Of a DNA stretch of 27,996 nucleotides, positions 10,934 through 23,494 are shown piece by piece; position 1 is the first letter of the stretch, and each line of letters begins with the position of its first letter. Source of the DNA: a virus; IMG/VR virus record IMGVR_UViG_3300031269_000074, positions 1 through 27,996 of that record, one strand, 5' to 3'. The notes beneath the pieces were generated by a model, which searched no databases, was not told the DNA's origin, and worked only from the letters and a program-made list of their open reading frames with translations. Made by a program: the position numbers and the translations under genes.

Positions 10934-11200
10934 TCAGTCAGGCTGAATCGTGTCAGAGGCTTTGAAGTAAATCCTCTTTCGGGCTGGGATGACAATAGGT
11001 TCGTTTGTCTTGGGATTTCTGGCTTGCCTTTCAGCTTGCATCCGTGTGCCAAAGATACCAAATCCATAAACCTTCACAGTATCATCTTTAGACAATGCCT
11101 CTTTGATCGATGCAAAGAATGCGTCATGAACTTGTGATGCCTTCTGCTTAGTTAGGCCTGTACGTTCTTGAATTGATGCAACCAGTTCCTGCTTATTCAT
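10934..11200 (-). CDS. HU/IHF-family DNA-binding protein
   Basis: 88 residues, the usual HU length. The N-terminal helices ([20 protein letters not shown]) and the beta-arm region [18 protein letters not shown], then [15 protein letters not shown], are the HU signature, with ARNP as the arm-tip core. It bends DNA and probably aids replication, packaging or genome compaction. AGGAG lies 7 bases before the ATG, and the ATGA overlaps the upstream gene's stop. A terminator follows immediately, allowing high separate expression. Whether it behaves as HU (non-specific) or IHF-like (sequence-specific) cannot be told from sequence. Confidence 0.93.
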
Positions 11201-14015: not shown

Positions 14016-14693
14016 TTATAGGTAGGATTTCACAAAATCTCTAAGCTCGGAATGTTGAACTCCTACAGAAAGATCGTAATAAGGTATGGCTCCTCTACCT
14101 AACAAAAACAGCCTATGAGTCATTCCAACAACATGACCGTATCTATTAACGATCATTCCTCCAGAACTGCCGGGTGCTATTCTAAGGTGATAAAGATCCC
14201 ACGTCAACGAATCATCTACCTGATATTTTCCTGAATAGGTCCCTCTGATAATAGGAACCATATGCCTATCCAGGTCCTCAAGTCCGTAGGGAGATGAGAT
14301 GGAGAATACCTGCTCTCCTTTTACTGGAGGGGTAAACGACACGGTGGCAGGCGTCCCTTTCATTCCGGGTGCCAGAAGCATGCACATGTCAAGGTGAATG
14401 TTAAGTCGGATTATTTGAGCCTCGAAACTATCACCCCCAAGCTTCTTGACGGATGTTTGCTCAAACGGATTAGGGCTTACACATACGTGAGCTGCTGTAA
14501 GTATGTAAGCCCCCTCTTCCTTCGATGCGATTATGGTGCCAGAGCCAGAACTCATCTTGATTCCCGACATATGTTTTACCACCTTAACATATGAGTTTAA
14601 GGGTAAGTTGGGTTCGTACTCTGGTGAGTAAGTTGCACAAGAAGATGTGCAAGAAGAAATGAACAAAACAAATGCAAATAGTAACGTTTTCAA
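14016..14693 (-). CDS. Lipoprotein trypsin-like serine protease
   Basis: 225 residues, TTG start with AGGAG 7 bases upstream. The N-terminus (MKTLLFAFVLFISSC) is a lipoprotein signal with C15 as probable lipid site. The trypsin/HtrA-type catalytic triad is visible: H69 in TAAHVC, D102 in HLDMCML, S177 in APGSSGGMIV. GSGTII (about 50-55) precedes the His as in trypsin folds. No PDZ domain follows. It should face the periplasm or cell surface and cut proteins there. It lies between tRNA-Val and tRNA-Arg genes with a palindrome upstream. An envelope protease is uncommon in phages; roles might be receptor removal, superinfection exclusion or lysis. Fold assignment is firm, role is inferred. Confidence 0.82.
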   Translation of the reverse strand: MKTLLFAFVLFISSCTSSCATYSPEYEPNLPLNSYVKVVKHMSGIKMSSGSGTIIASKEEGAYILTAAHVCVSPNPFEQTSVKKLGGDSFEAQIIRLNIHLDMCMLLAPGMKGTPATVSFTPPVKGEQVFSISSPYGLEDLDRHMVPIIRGTYSGKYQVDDSLTWDLYHLRIAPGSSGGMIVNRYGHVVGMTHRLFLLGRGAIPYYDLSVGVQHSELRDFVKSYL

Positions 14694-16944: not shown

Positions 16945-17516
16945 ACCATCTCCTTTTCCTCTGAATCTTTAATTCTACCCAAGAATAGCTCAAACTTTGG
17001 CTTGTGCTCTACCGATCCGTATTGAGATGGGATAGATCTCAACTTGCGCAAGATCTTGTTGGCGCTTGACCTATCTTTTTCGAGCAACGCTTTCTGTAAA
17101 GCCAGTGGTACGACATGCATGGGTACCGATACTGCTCCGAAGTAACTAGCCAGGCTGGGCATCGTCTCTGGAGCGAGGTGCATCACTTGCTCCAGTTTAA
17201 TAGCCAGTGCAGACGTAAGGCAAATCACATTCTGATTAACTAGATAGAGAGGATTGTCCTTGTCGAGGATAATGCACTCTAGCTCTAATACATCTACGCC
17301 GTATTGTTGAAGAACCTCCGAACCTTCTTTCTCAAAAAAATCGAGGAGGTCCTCATCTTCTAGCTCACACTTGATGTCTACAGCATGATTGCCTTCAGCG
17401 TCAGTAATTTTAGACTTCTCAAATCTAATTGCAAATTCTTTACCTTCGACAACTTCTCGTAACAGAAGTCTGCCGACTCGATCGGGCGTAAGGTTTTCTT
17501 CGCTAGTTATATGCAA
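16932..17516 (-). CDS. Unknown protein between replicase and exonucleases
   Basis: 194 residues if translation starts at TTG 17516; GGAGG lies 6 bases upstream and the start is 14 bases inside the polymerase stop. The longer open frame to 17585 lacks a ribosome site. I do not recognise it. The N-terminal half alternates strands and acidic helices (EFAIRFEKSKITDAEG, CELEDEDLLDFFEKEG); the C-terminal half is helical and basic (LLEKDRSSANKILRKLRSIP). It is co-translated with the polymerase and the second exonuclease, so a polymerase-exonuclease linker or accessory subunit is a reasonable guess. It is not an obvious clamp or theta subunit. Confidence 0.65.
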   Translation of the reverse strand: MHITSEENLTPDRVGRLLLREVVEGKEFAIRFEKSKITDAEGNHAVDIKCELEDEDLLDFFEKEGSEVLQQYGVDVLELECIILDKDNPLYLVNQNVICLTSALAIKLEQVMHLAPETMPSLASYFGAVSVPMHVVPLALQKALLEKDRSSANKILRKLRSIPSQYGSVEHKPKFELFLGRIKDSEEKEMVWPI

Positions 17517-20500
17517 AATGTGCCTCCAGGCAATGTGCGCTAGGTTTGTCTTTGTATAGACTAATTTCAACCTTAATAAAAACAACCCTAAACAGCATGT
17601 CGTTGAATTTTTGACTATCGTAGTCGTTGGGGAAAACGGATATATCTAAGAAGCTGCTCTCATCTTCCAGTTTGAGAAAGCACATAAGGTCATTGTTCTT
17701 TGTCGCTATCTCATTCAGGTCGGTCACAATACCACATAACCAAGAGGTAGATCCAGGAGTCATTCTCATTTCCTCAATCTTTTTAGAACCCATCTTAGAC
17801 GCCTGCATTCTAAACTCGTCTGCAGGGTGGCCTGTCCTATACCTACCCAAAAATTCTCTCTCCTTATCGAGCATGAATCTAGTCTCCGGTCTTTCAACTA
17901 TGTTAGATTCAAACGGAATCTCAAGAGATCCAAATAGATTCATCTGGTCTGGATTCTGCTTTCTAAAGTAACTTAGGTACTTAGAAGACTGGGCTACAAG
18001 ATCGGCTCTGGCTTGGTATGTGTCGCCTTTAAGTAGGAGGTCGAGTGCTCCCGAGTAAACCAAGCTGTCCAAGCTTTTTGAACTCATTGTCACCTTTGAA
18101 AACAGTTCGGTAAGGTTCTTGTATGGAGGAAAAGGCATCTTCCTCTCGCTTTCATTATTGGGGTTTGGCATTCTTGGAATTTCTTCTGCCACGATAGTAC
18201 TTATATTCTGTATGCCAGAAAGACCTACCCATATCTGACCATCCCTTACCTTAAAGTTTGCAGAAGACTTTTGTACGGTTGGCTCAAAAACTTCTACGCC
18301 AAAACTCTTAGCATCTTCGATAAACATCCTTACGTCATCAAAGTTGCTCTGCCTTATTTGCATCTGGGCGGCAAGCAGTTCTGCGGTGTAGTGGGCTTTT
18401 AACCATGCTGTCTGATAAGTAATCATGGCGTATGCTGCCGCGTGAGATCTGTTGAAACCGTATCTTGCGAATGTTTCAATCTGCCTCCAAAGCTCTTCAA
18501 GAAGCTCTAGAGAATAATGCTTGGCTGAACCTCCCTGCATGAAAGTTTTCTTCTGCATCGCCATTTCATCTGCTTTCTTCTTCCCCATAGCTCTACGAAG
18601 TAAATCTGCTCCGCCAAGCGTGTAGCCGCAAACAACCTGAGCAATTTCCATAACTTGCTCCTGATACAGAATGACCCCATAAGTTGTTTTTAGTATGGGC
18701 TCAAGATCTGGGTGCAAGTAAGTAACAGGTTCCTTGCCGTTCTTTCTCCGGATGTAGACTTCATGCATTCCAGCGTCCATCGGTCCAGGTCTGTACAAAG
18801 CAACCGTTGCAACAACATCCTCAAACTCAGAGGCGTTCATCTGGCCTACCATCTGAGCCATGCCGTCCGAAGACACTTGAAACATACCGATTGTTCTACC
18901 AGAAGATATGAGTTCAAATACCTTCGGGTCGTCTAGAGGTATGTTGGACATATCTGGGACAGGCTTTCCCTGATTGCCAATAAGTTCCAAGGCGTACTGA
19001 ATGACGTCTAGTTCTGCCAATCCAAGAAAATCAAACTTTACAAGCCCCATCTTCTCAGAGTCATTCTTATCTAGCTGTGAAACGTACCGTGTGATGTTCT
19101 TGCTTTCGTCTTTGACATTGATGGGAAAGTCTTTGCCTTCCGTATCCCAAACGGGTACATAGTCAGCAAGGTGTCCGTTAGATATAAGAACACCAGCAGC
19201 TCCACGGCCAACGCTTCTGTAGGCACCCTCAAGTCTAGACGCAACGTCTACTACCTTTCTCCATTTTGGGTTTCTTTTAAGCTCATACTCCAGCTTTTGG
19301 TATTTTGCTGGAGCTGTCTTTTTTACCCGCCCCTTCTCAAAAACGTCTGCAATCTTTTCGGGGTCATTCGGAGGTTCGGGCAACATCTTGCTGAAGCGAT
19401 CGCTGTCCTGAGCCGATACGCCTAGTACACGCGCGCAGGAGTGCCATGAAGACCTCGGTTTAAGTTCGCTGAATGTAGCTATCTGGCATACAGAATCCTG
19501 CCCATATCTTTCTACAACATACTTGATTACCTCTCCCCGACGAGACATACAGAAGTCAATGTCAAAGTCAGGCATAGAGACACGCTCTGGATTGAGAAAG
19601 CGCTCAAAGAGGAGATTGTATTTAATCGGGTCTAGGTCTGTGATACGCAAGCAATACGCCACCAATGAGCCAGCGCCAGAACCTCTGCCGGGTCCAACGG
19701 CAATGCCTTGGTTGTGAGCAAAGTTAACAAAGTCCCAGACAATAAGGAAGTAGCCCGGAAATCCCATATTGCTAATTACGGAAAGTTCGTATTCAAGGCG
19801 ATCTTCATACGTTTTGTCTGCATGAGGGCAGCGTATCCTTAACCCCTCATAAACCAGATGTTTGAGATAGGCGTATTGATCAGAAAACTTTTTGGGAATC
19901 TCAAAGTCAGGCAAAAAGTTATTCTGAAGATCTAGAGACACATTACACTTGAGTGCAATCTCTTGAGCAACCTCATCTTCAGGCATCGGTTTTAGCCACG
20001 CCTCCTTGATGGTGTGGTAGTTCGTGTTGTCAATACTTAGTCGTCTCTTCAGCCTATCGCATATGAGAACTGACTGTAGCTCAGCGTCTTCTCGGTTCAG
20101 GTAATGAACATCATTTGTGCGAACCTTCTTCACTCCAAGTTGGTTAAGAACTCGATTAACCTTCTTCTGTTCTCTGAGTCCGTGATCGATAACCTCTAGA
20201 TAGAAATCATCCTTATAGGTTTTCTTAAGTTGATAGAGGTGCCGATTGAGTTCATCTCTATCTTCTCTCAAAATAGATACGGGTATGGCACCCATGAGAT
20301 CACCACTCAACGCAATGACACCGCTCCTGTGGCGATACAGGTCCTCGTATGACTTGTCGGTCGCGCAAAGGTGAAAGAGGTTTTTAAGGCCCTCTTCGTT
20401 CTTTGCAAGAAGCGTTAAGTGATGATTCTCATCAGTTGTTACTTCAACTCCATATATAGGTTTAACTCCATTAGACCTGCATGCATAGTGATGTTGAACA

Positions 20501-20637
20501 ATTCCAGACATGGAATTGTGGTCAGTGATAGCAAGCACGCCCTGAGATGTATTACTCGCAACTTTCCGGGCCAATGACTTCGAGGCAGGTAGAGCGTCCC
20601 CAGTCGAGTGCTTCGTGTGAACGTGAAGGTGAATCAT
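17503..20637 (-). CDS. dnaE: DNA polymerase III alpha subunit-type replicase
   Basis: 1044 residues; C-family replicase. The PHP domain at the N-terminus keeps metal-ligand motifs (HLHVHTKHS 3-11, ITDHNSMSG 37-45, TNDVHYL 174-180), so it may be an active nuclease or pyrophosphatase, unlike E. coli. Palm motifs: GPGRGSGAGSLVAY (315-328), PDFDIDF (356-362) with D357 and D359, and D536 in KFDFLGL. A clamp-binding pentapeptide QMNLF lies at 898-902 and an OB fold at about 965-1005. It ends soon after the OB fold, without the tau-binding domain of the roughly 1160-residue E. coli protein. AGGAGG precedes the ATG, which lies 86 bases inside the AAA+ gene. Confidence 0.96.
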   Translation of the reverse strand: MIHLHVHTKHSTGDALPASKSLARKVASNTSQGVLAITDHNSMSGIVQHHYACRSNGVKPIYGVEVTTDENHHLTLLAKNEEGLKNLFHLCATDKSYEDLYRHRSGVIALSGDLMGAIPVSILREDRDELNRHLYQLKKTYKDDFYLEVIDHGLREQKKVNRVLNQLGVKKVRTNDVHYLNREDAELQSVLICDRLKRRLSIDNTNYHTIKEAWLKPMPEDEVAQEIALKCNVSLDLQNNFLPDFEIPKKFSDQYAYLKHLVYEGLRIRCPHADKTYEDRLEYELSVISNMGFPGYFLIVWDFVNFAHNQGIAVGPGRGSGAGSLVAYCLRITDLDPIKYNLLFERFLNPERVSMPDFDIDFCMSRRGEVIKYVVERYGQDSVCQIATFSELKPRSSWHSCARVLGVSAQDSDRFSKMLPEPPNDPEKIADVFEKGRVKKTAPAKYQKLEYELKRNPKWRKVVDVASRLEGAYRSVGRGAAGVLISNGHLADYVPVWDTEGKDFPINVKDESKNITRYVSQLDKNDSEKMGLVKFDFLGLAELDVIQYALELIGNQGKPVPDMSNIPLDDPKVFELISSGRTIGMFQVSSDGMAQMVGQMNASEFEDVVATVALYRPGPMDAGMHEVYIRRKNGKEPVTYLHPDLEPILKTTYGVILYQEQVMEIAQVVCGYTLGGADLLRRAMGKKKADEMAMQKKTFMQGGSAKHYSLELLEELWRQIETFARYGFNRSHAAAYAMITYQTAWLKAHYTAELLAAQMQIRQSNFDDVRMFIEDAKSFGVEVFEPTVQKSSANFKVRDGQIWVGLSGIQNISTIVAEEIPRMPNPNNESERKMPFPPYKNLTELFSKVTMSSKSLDSLVYSGALDLLLKGDTYQARADLVAQSSKYLSYFRKQNPDQMNLFGSLEIPFESNIVERPETRFMLDKEREFLGRYRTGHPADEFRMQASKMGSKKIEEMRMTPGSTSWLCGIVTDLNEIATKNNDLMCFLKLEDESSFLDISVFPNDYDSQKFNDMLFRVVFIKVEISLYKDKPSAHCLEAHFAYN

Positions 20638-21865
20638 CTTCTTCCTCCTCCTTCTCTTCTTCTTCCTGAAGTTTTAATATCTCCTCCTCAATACCACTGA
20701 AGACAATATCATTTGGAGGGATTGTGTAATCCCAACCTTTGACTTTATAGCGACGCAACAGTTCAACTAAGTGAGATACGGGGTATGCCTGAATAAGACG
20801 GTCAAAAAACTCAAACATGTATTCAGGAATATCTTCTACACCCTCCCTCTCTGCCATCGTGACGATAATGTCTCGCCTGATGTCTTCTGTAGGAAGAGGC
20901 ATCTTAATTATCTGGTCAATCCTACCCGGTCTTCTGAATGCATCTGGTAGTCTAGATTGGTCGTTAGTACTCATGAGCGTAACTGGAACATGGTAGTGGC
21001 TGTCCTCGAAGAGGAACAAACTCGTCTCCAGCGCTCGACTGTTGCCTCGATCGATGTCATCGATGATAACTAGAGTGGGTTGAAGTAAATCAATCAACTC
21101 CCTCCAGTCCTGTCTTGAGATGTGAGTCAATACCTGGTTTGTGATGACGATAGTTCTCTTAGATAGAATCTTATGGGCATTGGCACATAAGGTTGATTTA
21201 CCTGTGCCTGGTACTCCTTGAAATATAATGACCCTTCTGACTCCGCTCTTAATATACTCCTTTAGGCCCTCAACCTCCCCAACAAGCTGACCTTTATATT
21301 CCTTGTTTTCGAACTGGTGGCCCATAACGATAAATTCATCAACATCGCTATCAATGATGACGCTCTCGTTCTTGCTCCAGAAGAGGTCTCGTATACCTTC
21401 ATACGCGAGATTCTTTTCTGGCGATGGAGGTATGTGAAGTTCATCAAACTCATACTCATCGCCAGATATAGTAATGAAAACAGAGCCGCCATTCTCTAAG
21501 GGTGCCTTGCAGAGTCTTTTGTTGGAGCTTTCTATCTCTACATCGAGATCTAACTCTTCCATCAAAAATTCACCCACCCAACACATAGAGTCGGGAACGT
21601 CTGACTTAAAACCCTTCTGATGTAAAAAGTTATCAATGGGGTCTACCCTTCGAGCATCTTTCTCAACAAGACTTTCCACCACATTGAGTGAAGACTGAAC
21701 CCATGTGTCGGGCTTATCAATGTCTAAGTCTTGTAAGGTTCTACTCCACTGGCGAAACTCTGAGATTAGCGGCTCAACTTTTTCGTATACTTCTCTTGGT
21801 ATTCTCGTTCGGTCGACAATCACTTTAGAAAGCAACTGCTCCAAAATAAGTGCAGGGATTTTCAT
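20552..21865 (-). CDS. AAA+ ATPase of replication operon
   Basis: 437 residues. Walker A GVPGTGKST (217-225), Walker B LVIIDDID (265-272), sensor-1 STND (299-302) and the arginine-finger-type segment RRPGRID (311-317) mark a classical AAA+ module like those of FtsH/Cdc48-type unfoldases. It lacks the SRC motif of clamp loaders. Residues 1-190 are an unrecognised N-terminal domain. The C-terminus is strongly acidic (about 393-409) and runs 86 bases into the polymerase gene in another frame. Role: energy-dependent remodelling of a replication or assembly complex, inferred from the neighbouring replicase. AGAGGAA lies upstream of the ATG and a good promoter precedes it. Confidence 0.85.
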   Translation of the reverse strand: MKIPALILEQLLSKVIVDRTRIPREVYEKVEPLISEFRQWSRTLQDLDIDKPDTWVQSSLNVVESLVEKDARRVDPIDNFLHQKGFKSDVPDSMCWVGEFLMEELDLDVEIESSNKRLCKAPLENGGSVFITISGDEYEFDELHIPPSPEKNLAYEGIRDLFWSKNESVIIDSDVDEFIVMGHQFENKEYKGQLVGEVEGLKEYIKSGVRRVIIFQGVPGTGKSTLCANAHKILSKRTIVITNQVLTHISRQDWRELIDLLQPTLVIIDDIDRGNSRALETSLFLFEDSHYHVPVTLMSTNDQSRLPDAFRRPGRIDQIIKMPLPTEDIRRDIIVTMAEREGVEDIPEYMFEFFDRLIQAYPVSHLVELLRRYKVKGWDYTIPPNDIVFSGIEEEILKLQEEEEKEEEEDDSPSRSHEALDWGRSTCLEVIGPESCE

Positions 21866-21914: not shown

Positions 21915-21944
21915 ATTCTAGCCGATGTCCAGACTCTCAGTCAA
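21915..21944 (-). promoter_or_regulatory. Sigma-70-type promoter for the replication operon
   Basis: TTGACT (21939-21944), an 18-base spacer and TAGAAT (21915-21920) on the minus strand, each one base from consensus. The -35 overlaps the stop codon of the ribbon-helix-helix gene. Transcription would start about 40 bases before the AAA+ ATG. Confidence 0.6.
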
Positions 21945-22171
21945 GACTTCTTTTTAGTGCTTATGTGTTTTGAGAGGATCTCTCTCATCAGCTGAGCGGG
22001 TGACACATCCATTCTTTCAGCATACTCACATAGCCCCTTCATGACATCTTCGTCAAGATAAATCTTGACTCTCGGTGCGCTTTTTTCTGGGGGGTCCTCA
22101 AAAACAGGACCTTTCATAGGGTAGATGGGTTTCATAGGGTGGGTGGGTTTCATAGGGTGGGTGGGTTTCAT
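21941..22171 (-). CDS. Ribbon-helix-helix DNA-binding protein with repeated start
   Basis: 76 residues if begun at the first ATG (22171), immediately after a terminator T-run. Four in-frame ATGs (22171, 22153, 22135, 22117) occur at 18-base spacing, giving MKPTHP-MKPTHP-MKPIYP-MKG; none has a Shine-Dalgarno site. The domain is APRVKIYLDEDVMKGL then YAERMDVSPAQLMREILSKHI: one strand and two helices as in MetJ/Arc-type regulators, with a lysine tail. These bind DNA as dimers and usually repress. The replication promoter lies at its 3' end, making it a candidate regulator of that operon or of itself. Domain call is fairly firm, target inferred. Confidence 0.75.
   Translation of the reverse strand: MKPTHPMKPTHPMKPIYPMKGPVFEDPPEKSAPRVKIYLDEDVMKGLCEYAERMDVSPAQLMREILSKHISTKKKS
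22118..22171. repeat. Three 18-bp tandem repeats carrying start codons
   Basis: Units at 22154-22171 and 22136-22153 are identical and the third (22118-22135) differs at three bases. Each begins with ATG on the minus strand and adds six residues (MKPTHP or MKPIYP). Confidence 0.9.
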
Positions 22172-22215
22172 AAAAAAAGGCCGCCACAAACCAGGAGGAG
22201 GAAGTTTGTGGCGGC
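22172..22215 (-). terminator. Strong rho-independent terminator abutting RHH start
   Basis: GCCGCCACAAAC pairs perfectly with GTTTGTGGCGGC around a 12-base loop of TTCCTCCTCCTG on the minus strand, then CTTTTTTT. It ends the alpha-CTD-like gene transcript; the first RHH ATG is the next base after the T-run. Confidence 0.9.
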
Positions 22216-22217
22216 GG

Positions 22218-22239
22218 GACCGTAGAATATCCTACGGTC
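22218..22239. repeat. Second hairpin next to terminator
   Basis: GACCGTAG and CTACGGTC are perfect 8-base inverted arms with a 6-base spacer, two bases from the terminator stem. No T-run follows, so it is a transcript stabiliser, a pause site or a protein-binding palindrome. Confidence 0.6.
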
Positions 22240-22278
22240 ATCAAGAGAACAAGATATTAACATGAACCCTATTCTATG

Positions 22279-23181
22279 TCAAAAAGAAAAGTTATCATCA
22301 ACCTTGACGGAACGAGCGTCTACTTCTGCTGTAAGTTCGATAAGAATTTGATTACCTTCCTCAAAGGTAATTTTATCAAACTCCTTGCCGGTTAGCGCAA
22401 TGGCTCGCTCTCTTGCAGTCTGTTGGTCTTCGCCCAATTCCCAGGCTTGGTCCATAATATCTTCTACCAGCTTATCGTGGGCGGGTAGATTGAATGCAAG
22501 TTTTTCAAGTGTTGCTTCAAACGTATCGGGGTCATCCTTGTCGTAGATACCACCGATGAGATCCATGATCTGCCCCTTGGCGGTGTCGTACGGAATATCC
22601 CATGCGTTCTGGTAGATCTTGCAAGCCTTGGTGATACTTTCAGATGAGAGATCATCACCTTGACCCATTCTCTGGAGTTCCAAGAAGTAGTCGTGATTGC
22701 TCTTATCCTCTCTCTCTGTGACCTGAGCCTCTTCCTTCTCTTCCTTCTCAAGAAGCCCGTGTTCTTCGAGTTGAGTGAAGATGATTTCAACGGTGCCCTT
22801 ACCGAAGCCTTCTACCTTCATAAGCTCGTCGGCTGAGTACGCCATAAGATCCTCAACTGAAGAGAAGTGGTCGTTCAGGAGATTGTAGGCACGAGTTCCA
22901 CCTCGGCCAAGTTCAGTTAACCCCATGAAGTCAAAGGCGTCGGTCTGCTCTTTCTCTTTCTCTACCTCTTTCTCTTCATCATCATCTTCCTCGACTACCT
23001 TCTGTGGCTCCTCTACCACCGCTGCAGGTCTTGCTACAATATCATCTCGATTCTGATGGATCTTATCGTACTGTTTGAATACGTAGATCTCAAAGGGAAG
23101 CCCTTCTTTTCGGGCATTCTGTTCTGTTTCTTTCACAACTTCTGGCGACATCAATTCGCGTGGATCAACTTCGATTTTCAT
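22279..23181 (-). CDS. Acidic protein with RNA polymerase alpha-CTD-like helix-hairpin-helix domain
   Basis: 300 residues, GGAGG 4 bases before the ATG. Residues about 60-80 are a run of Glu, Asp and Lys. Residues about 85-145 resemble the bacterial RpoA C-terminal domain: LTELGRGGTRAYNLL matches the ELTVRSANCLK region with R97 and N100 in R-x-x-N spacing (R265/N268 in E. coli), followed by SVEDLMAYSADELMKVEGFG, then GKGTVEIIFTQLEEHGL for the second helix-hairpin-helix. That domain binds UP-element DNA and activators. A generic DNA-binding HhH domain is the alternative. The C-terminal 120 residues are helical and unrecognised. A terminator and hairpin follow. A transcription role is inferred. 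Confidence 0.65.
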   Translation of the reverse strand: MKIEVDPRELMSPEVVKETEQNARKEGLPFEIYVFKQYDKIHQNRDDIVARPAAVVEEPQKVVEEDDDEEKEVEKEKEQTDAFDFMGLTELGRGGTRAYNLLNDHFSSVEDLMAYSADELMKVEGFGKGTVEIIFTQLEEHGLLEKEEKEEAQVTEREDKSNHDYFLELQRMGQGDDLSSESITKACKIYQNAWDIPYDTAKGQIMDLIGGIYDKDDPDTFEATLEKLAFNLPAHDKLVEDIMDQAWELGEDQQTARERAIALTGKEFDKITFEEGNQILIELTAEVDARSVKVDDNFSF

Positions 23182-23494
23182 CTTTCCTCCAAGATTTATA
23201 AATCTCTTGACATGCTGCTGAAATGTTCTCTTGCTCTCGCAAGAACGAATTTACTTCTGGTGAAATGTTCACCCAAATATACGGCTTCGTTTTTTTGGAT
23301 GATTGGTACGACCTAATATTTTCCACAAGAAGCCATACCTGCTCCTCCTTGTGTGCAAAGTTCATTAGGTATCTAACATAATCCTCCGTAACGCAAGCGT
23401 ATTCTGACAACACCTTTACCGACAACCTGTTGTCTTGTATCAGCTTGGTTAAGTGCTGAGCAACAGGGTGTCGACGGCTTATCAGTATATGCAT
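23165..23494 (-). CDS. Possible helix-turn-helix protein
   Basis: 109 residues, AAGG 4 bases before the ATG. Residues about 12-45 (AQHLTKLIQDNRLSVKVLSE then CVTEDYVRYLMN) have helix-turn-helix spacing like Cro/C1-type regulators, but the match is loose. A second segment (ISPEVNSFLREQENISAACQ) looks like two short helices. It overlaps the alpha-CTD-like gene by 17 bases, so the two are co-translated and may work together in regulation. I cannot name a family. Confidence 0.5.
   Translation of the reverse strand: MHILISRRHPVAQHLTKLIQDNRLSVKVLSEYACVTEDYVRYLMNFAHKEEQVWLLVENIRSYQSSKKTKPYIWVNISPEVNSFLREQENISAACQEIYKSWRKDENRS

Follow-up and report, generated by a model that had tools for sequence, protein, structure and literature searches.

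A phage protein family with a domain related to the RNA polymerase alpha C-terminal domain, encoded just upstream of dnaE

The stretch of viral DNA analysed here, referred to as the window, comprises the 27,996 nucleotides of the IMG/VR record IMGVR_UViG_3300031269_000074 (positions 1 to 27,996). Its minus strand carries a gene for a 300-aa protein, preceded by an overlapping partner gene and followed by genes for a ribbon-helix-helix (RHH) protein, an AAA+ ATPase and a DnaE-type DNA polymerase (Table 1). The minus-strand segment 22739-22935, which a first-pass annotation had singled out as a mimic of the RNA polymerase (RNAP) alpha C-terminal domain (alpha-CTD), corresponds to residues 83-148 of this protein.

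Table 1. Position of the 300-aa protein gene, of its parts and of the neighbouring features in the window
Feature	Position	Strand	Basis and remarks
300-aa protein gene	22279..23181	-	ATG behind GGAGG; orthologs in four phage records
Helical hairpin, residues 1-46 (helices 13-26 and 30-46)	23044..23181	-	AlphaFold pLDDT about 65-80 over residues 11-40; pattern common to orthologs
Acidic linker, residues 50-82, presumably flexible	22936..23034	-	Sequence; pLDDT <50 over residues 42-80
Alpha-CTD-like (HhH)2 domain, residues 83-146	22744..22935	-	PF03118 25.2 bits, HHH_5 25.8 bits; fold; orthologs are clear alpha-CTDs
R97-A-Y-N100, equivalent of R265 and N268 of E. coli alpha	22882..22893	-	Alignments
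G127-K-G-T130, second hairpin, equivalent of G296-K297-K298-S299	22792..22803	-	Alignments
Orphan helical C-terminal domain, residues 162-295	22297..22698	-	Window versus G001, p = 1.6e-7 from shuffling
Acidic, phenylalanine-containing C-terminal tip DDNFSF	22282..22299	-	Sequence; similar tails in orthologs
109-aa partner gene, probable HTH N-terminus, RHH-like C-terminus (by eye)	23165..23494	-	Positional homologs in G001, G008 and G009
Ribbon-helix-helix protein	21941..22189	-	PF01402 E = 4e-5
AAA+ ATPase	20552..21865	-	PF00004 E = 2e-9
DnaE-type DNA polymerase III alpha	17503..20637	-	PF07733 E = 4e-87
Two hairpins after the gene	22180..22239	-	Fold -36.9 kcal/mol, z = -8.4
Promoter-like TTGACA-17-TAATAT, 10/12	22254..22282	-	Consensus match only; close behind the gene and before those for RHH, AAA+ and DnaE

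The elements on which the first-pass annotation was based are all present in the protein. The R-x-x-N is R97-A-Y-N100, the GKGT motif is G127-K-G-T130, the two helix-hairpin-helix (HhH) turns are L91-G-R-G-G-T-R-A98 and V123-E-G-F-G-K-G-T-V131, and the fused acidic segment (EEDDDEEKEVEKEKEQTD) spans residues 64-81. The helical C-terminus, described there as unknown, has indeed no Pfam family, no convincing match in phages and no second copy in the loci compared, yet it is kept in four other phages. At the other end, residues 1-46 resemble by eye the two helices of RHH proteins and may constitute a dimerisation part, a Pfam search giving no match for the RHH idea. The alpha N-terminal domain, which dimerises and binds beta and beta', has no match in the 300-aa protein, which therefore cannot join the core RNAP by the known route of alpha.

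The gene begins, behind a GGAGG, within the last 17 bp of ORF 23165-23494, in agreement with the co-translation with a possible HTH protein that had been suggested; the partner gene has only weak RHH matches. Of the two hairpins that follow the gene, the second (13-bp stem, then a U run) looks like an intrinsic terminator and, together with the promoter-like site, would mean that the HTH/RHH and alpha-CTD-like pair may form a transcript of its own. A second promoter-like site is at 23512-23484. No common promoter motif was obvious by eye in the intergenic regions of the window. The hairpins lie just downstream of the promoter-like site and might also represent an attenuator-like leader or an operator before the RHH, AAA+ and dnaE genes. 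At positions 22118-22172, a short tandem repeat (TGGGTTTCATAGGGTGGG-like, about three copies) falls among the opening codons of the RHH gene, or within the leader should translation really begin further in. Elsewhere on the minus strand of the window, an 88-aa ORF (10934-11200) reads like a histone-like protein of the HU/IHF family, and a 225-aa ORF (14016-14693) looks like a lipoprotein that is secreted and carries a serine protease domain of trypsin type (TAAHVC, GSSGG), which is unusual for a phage.

The AlphaFold model of the central domain (residues 76-150), built from the single sequence, has five helices and a mean pLDDT of 85.7. When it was compared with the PDB using Foldseek, the best matches were mostly alpha-CTDs, including that of E. 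coli (3n97_C, TM 0.66, rmsd 1.4 A, probability 0.97), and ranking by probability placed RNAP alpha-CTDs highest, with pol lambda, Hef and other HhH proteins lower. This is the structural overlay on the E. coli alpha-CTD that the first-pass annotation had called for; its E-values are weak (0.3 to 1), which the small size of the domain (65 residues) would lead one to expect. At the profile level, PF03118 (RNA_pol_A_CTD, curated cut-off 23.8 bits) exceeds its cut-off when run over the six frames of the window record (E = 3.8e-7, 25.1 bits), falls just below it on the whole 300-aa protein (22.2 bits) and, on the domain alone, ties with HHH_5 (cut-off 27 bits). The best NCBIfam match of the domain is a Hel308-type model (NF001308), and its first hairpin, GRGGTRA, is a canonical HhH, as is that of its counterpart in G001 (see below). 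A profile built from three clear orthologs gives the window domain 24.6 bits, barely more than Hel308 (23.0), while true RpoA CTDs score 44-67. The residues by which the alpha-CTD contacts DNA are R265, N268, N294, G296, K298, S299 and E302; according to the alignment, the window copy keeps R265, N268 and G296, has T at 299, and lacks N294, K298 and E302. The window copy by itself allows no choice between an alpha-CTD and a general HhH domain.

Used as a query, the 300-aa protein gave no match in phages, viral contigs or bacterial and archaeal genomes. Relatives were therefore reached through the portal gene, which led to related records that were then searched as a whole. One of them, IMGVR_UViG_3300028372_000005 (64 kb, hereafter G001), has portal, RNR, DnaE, thymidylate synthase and more in common with the window, and encodes directly upstream of dnaE a 388-aa protein that can be aligned with the window protein. 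This ortholog was identified by blastp on the G001 ORFs combined with synteny, a direct search of G001 with the protein giving no match. The best conserved part of the pair is the C-terminal domain. A profile made from these two sequences finds proteins in three further records, G008 (E 8.6e-23), G009 (4.1e-11) and G006 (5.7e-6), each encoded upstream of dnaE; as these were left out of the profile, they confirm the family independently. Four phage records with window-like portal and DnaE genes thus carry a positional ortholog. The gene was not found in those of the directly found DnaE relatives that were searched, neither it nor dnaE was found in the portal-only relatives (G011 and G012), and the AAA+ relatives (L040 and L041) showed no alpha-CTD. 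The DnaE of G001 (L010:11594-15553) contains an intein that includes a probable HNH nuclease (PF14890, E 2.6e-11), and the window DnaE shows none.

All five members display the same order of parts: N-terminal helices, an acidic linker, the alpha-CTD-like or HhH domain, a second acidic linker and the orphan helical C-terminal domain. An acidic tail bearing phenylalanine is present in most of them, the tips across the family being GEDFFAVDE, DEGFFDE, LKDLTF and DDGFFEE besides that of the window. The genetic setting is equally stable. All five genes lie just upstream of dnaE, that of G006 overlapping the predicted dnaE start by 4 bp, and an AAA+ gene is inserted between the two in the window, G008 and G009; the AAA+ protein matches clamp loaders and DnaC-like loaders weakly. 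Homologs of the partner gene occur in G001, G008 and G009 (p = 3e-5 to 2e-9, about 2e-9 for G001), and the overlap with it is found in four of the five phages, as 17 bp in the window and G009 and as an ATGA-type overlap in G001 and G008; the HTH/RHH gene is absent in G006.

Three of the orthologs settle the question that the window copy leaves. In G009, G006 and G008, PF03118 reaches 44.7, 39.9 and 39.0 bits and HHH_5 only 15.7, 18.6 and 26.7 bits, so that at the family level the repair-type HhH profile is not the better match; PF03118 exceeds its cut-off in four of the five members (G001 has no match), and HHH_5 stays below its own in every member that matches it. The NCBIfam matches of these three domains are headed by RpoA models (down to 5.5e-13), and in the PDB all 51 matches of the G009 domain and 48 of the 49 matches of the G008 domain are RNAP alpha, the marginal exception being a designed protein (E 0.09). 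Four members retain the counterparts of R265 and N268, and all five those of G296 and S/T299. Specifically, G009 keeps R265, N268, G296, S299 and E302 with R at 298, G006 keeps R265, N268, G296, K298, S299 and E302, and G008 keeps R265, N268, N294, G296 and K298 with T at 299. In G001, R265 and N268 are gone; it keeps G296 and the HhH hairpins, has T at 299, and is HhH-like only. The segment between the hairpins varies among the orthologs and is not conserved in the alignment. An early lean towards a generic HhH domain distinct from the alpha-CTD, prompted by the lost RxxN of G001, was overturned by the three further orthologs. From these sequence comparisons, we conclude that the domain is, at the family level, a genuine but drifting alpha-CTD homolog, whose window and G001 copies have drifted to a generic HhH look, and that what is said of the window copy depends on its orthologs. 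The homology proposed by the first-pass annotation is therefore upheld by the orthologs and not by the window copy, which ties with generic HhH, and the word mimic fits only loosely since homology is more probable than convergent mimicry. The competition with or replacement of the host alpha-CTD that the annotation also proposed is a hypothesis, and without an alpha-NTD the protein would not replace alpha within core RNAP by the known route.

The setting of the gene fits a DNA-binding adaptor for transcription or replication. The likeliest reading, which we put forward tentatively, is that of a phage adaptor whose central domain descends from the alpha-CTD and which helps the host RNAP at phage promoters. 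The N-terminal helices would dimerise and thereby present two alpha-CTD-like domains on flexible tethers, as in the RNAP alpha dimer; these domains would use R97 and N100 to contact the minor groove of A/T-rich DNA, and a partner would be recruited by the C-terminal domain and its acidic, phenylalanine-bearing tip. At phage promoters, the protein would work jointly with the HTH/RHH protein that is co-translated with it. In E. coli, Arg265 is crucial for the binding of the alpha-CTD to UP elements and for its contact with CRP (PMC2988021). The conservation of R97 and N100 makes minor-groove contact by the window copy plausible, but the lack of N294, K298 and E302 makes the case weaker. G001 has neither R265 and N268 nor a PF03118 match, so alpha-CTD-type minor-groove recognition is not universal in the family, and the two lost residues argue against a need for UP-element recognition throughout it. 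A sigma70 region 4-like ORF was found in the 125-kb relative G009 (31 bits, G009:C1:117576-117659), and none in the window, G001, G006 or G008.

The location of the gene among replication genes (dnaE, AAA+) suits a replication role as well, and a replication or recombination accessory is a possible, if somewhat doubtful, alternative, in which the alpha-CTD-derived module would bring the C-terminal domain, and through the tip a part of the replisome, to DNA near an origin or fork together with DnaE and the AAA+ protein. The position directly upstream of dnaE in all five phages, with the AAA+ gene adjoining in three, speaks for it, as does the retention of the HhH hairpins without R265 and N268 in G001, which is expected if general DNA binding suffices. 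The acidic, phenylalanine-containing tails are also reminiscent of the tips of SSB, which are of this kind, and of the clamp-binding tails of T4. In this phage, the ends of gp43, gp55 and gp33 are hydrophobic-acidic tails that bind the clamp (PMC2988020). However, the C-terminal domain has no sequence link to any replication protein, gene adjacency by itself gives no function, and the terminator-like hairpin and promoter-like site separate the window gene from the AAA+ and dnaE genes. Two features, the loss of R265 and N268 by G001 and the constant linkage to dnaE, keep this alternative close to the transcription adaptor. Both functions would be joined if the pair of alpha-CTD-like domains marked promoters while the C-terminal domain and tip bound the phage replisome (DnaE or clamp); we hold such coupling to be the least probable of all the readings, but it would, if true, tie phage transcription to replication by a route other than T4 gp33/gp55/gp45.

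That the protein is a decoy or inhibitor, shutting down host transcription by titrating the host activators or the sigma surface that touch the alpha-CTD or by occupying UP elements, appears improbable. Phages do act on alpha, as in the modification of Arg265 by T4 Alt and ModA (PMC2988021) and the RpoA cleavage to which phage Rac leads (PMC7552054), and an alpha-CTD in free form could compete. Nevertheless, the region between the hairpins, which in E. coli includes contacts with activators, is not conserved among the orthologs, and a decoy would need neither the large extra domains nor the dnaE linkage. Even less probable is a generic (HhH)2 DNA-binding domain whose likeness to the alpha-CTD reflects common HhH ancestry only. 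The tied scores, the NF001308 match, the canonical first hairpin and the narrow lead over Hel308 in the window copy would suit it, as would the merely HhH-like domain of G001, but it is contradicted at the family level by G009, G006 and G008, which are clear alpha-CTDs and whose orthology is shown by their gene neighbourhood and their C-terminal domain.

Among known systems, residues 250-329 of E. coli RpoA share with the window protein the fold, the two HhH turns, the equivalents of R265 and N268 and a flexible linker after the N-terminal part, whereas the window protein lacks the alpha-NTD and N294, K298 and E302, and has the extra orphan C-terminal domain. The HhH domains of Hel308, Hef and UvrC type are alike in their (HhH)2 fold and second hairpin and score similarly against the window copy, whereas the clear orthologs match RNAP alpha instead. 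T4 Alt and ModA and phage Rac resemble the family in that they act on host alpha or its CTD, but their effect is modification of host alpha or its eventual cleavage, and they do not carry an alpha-CTD.

Further parallels are other phage proteins with an alpha-CTD-like domain: QDP42789.1 of Bacillus phage vB_BmeM-Goe8 (L033:1959-2591, annotated as RNA polymerase subunit alpha), gp24 of Microbacterium phage Atraxi (L042:2782-3201), gp68 of Mycobacterium phage Zenteno07 (L043:2692-3192), gp23 of Ruegeria phage vB_RpoS-V16 (L044:2929-3795, named pyrophosphatase in its RefSeq copy), ORF40 of Erythrobacter phage vB_EliS-L02 (PMC9127768), and proteins of several uncultured Caudovirales and of Rhodococcus phage Finch. 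Many further records named as phage and matching the alpha-CTD (Listeria, Staphylococcus, Enterococcus, Salmonella, gut 'Bacteriophage sp.') look like mislabelled host rpoA and were set aside. Like the window family, the phage proteins listed have the domain on a protein that is not alpha, but those of Goe8, Atraxi, Zenteno07 and V16 differ from it in partner regions and gene places. The presence of the domain in these four different proteins, all with R265 and N268 kept, suggests that phages have captured the alpha tail more than once. The first-pass annotation knew of no described phage protein of this layout, and this stands for the layout as far as searched but not for the domain, which is annotated in other phage proteins. 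Alpha-CTD domains in a few other phage proteins are thus known, and what is apparently new is the present layout, the orphan domain and the conserved place beside dnaE. The open-access literature yielded no functional study of phage proteins with an alpha-CTD domain. Phages are known that modify, cleave or displace the host alpha-CTD, and we found no study of a phage carrying its own. The five members, at a fixed place by replication genes, offer a natural series in which the DNA-contact residues go from near-complete to lost. These uncultured phages place a captured RNAP alpha tail domain between two other domains, beside DNA-polymerase genes.
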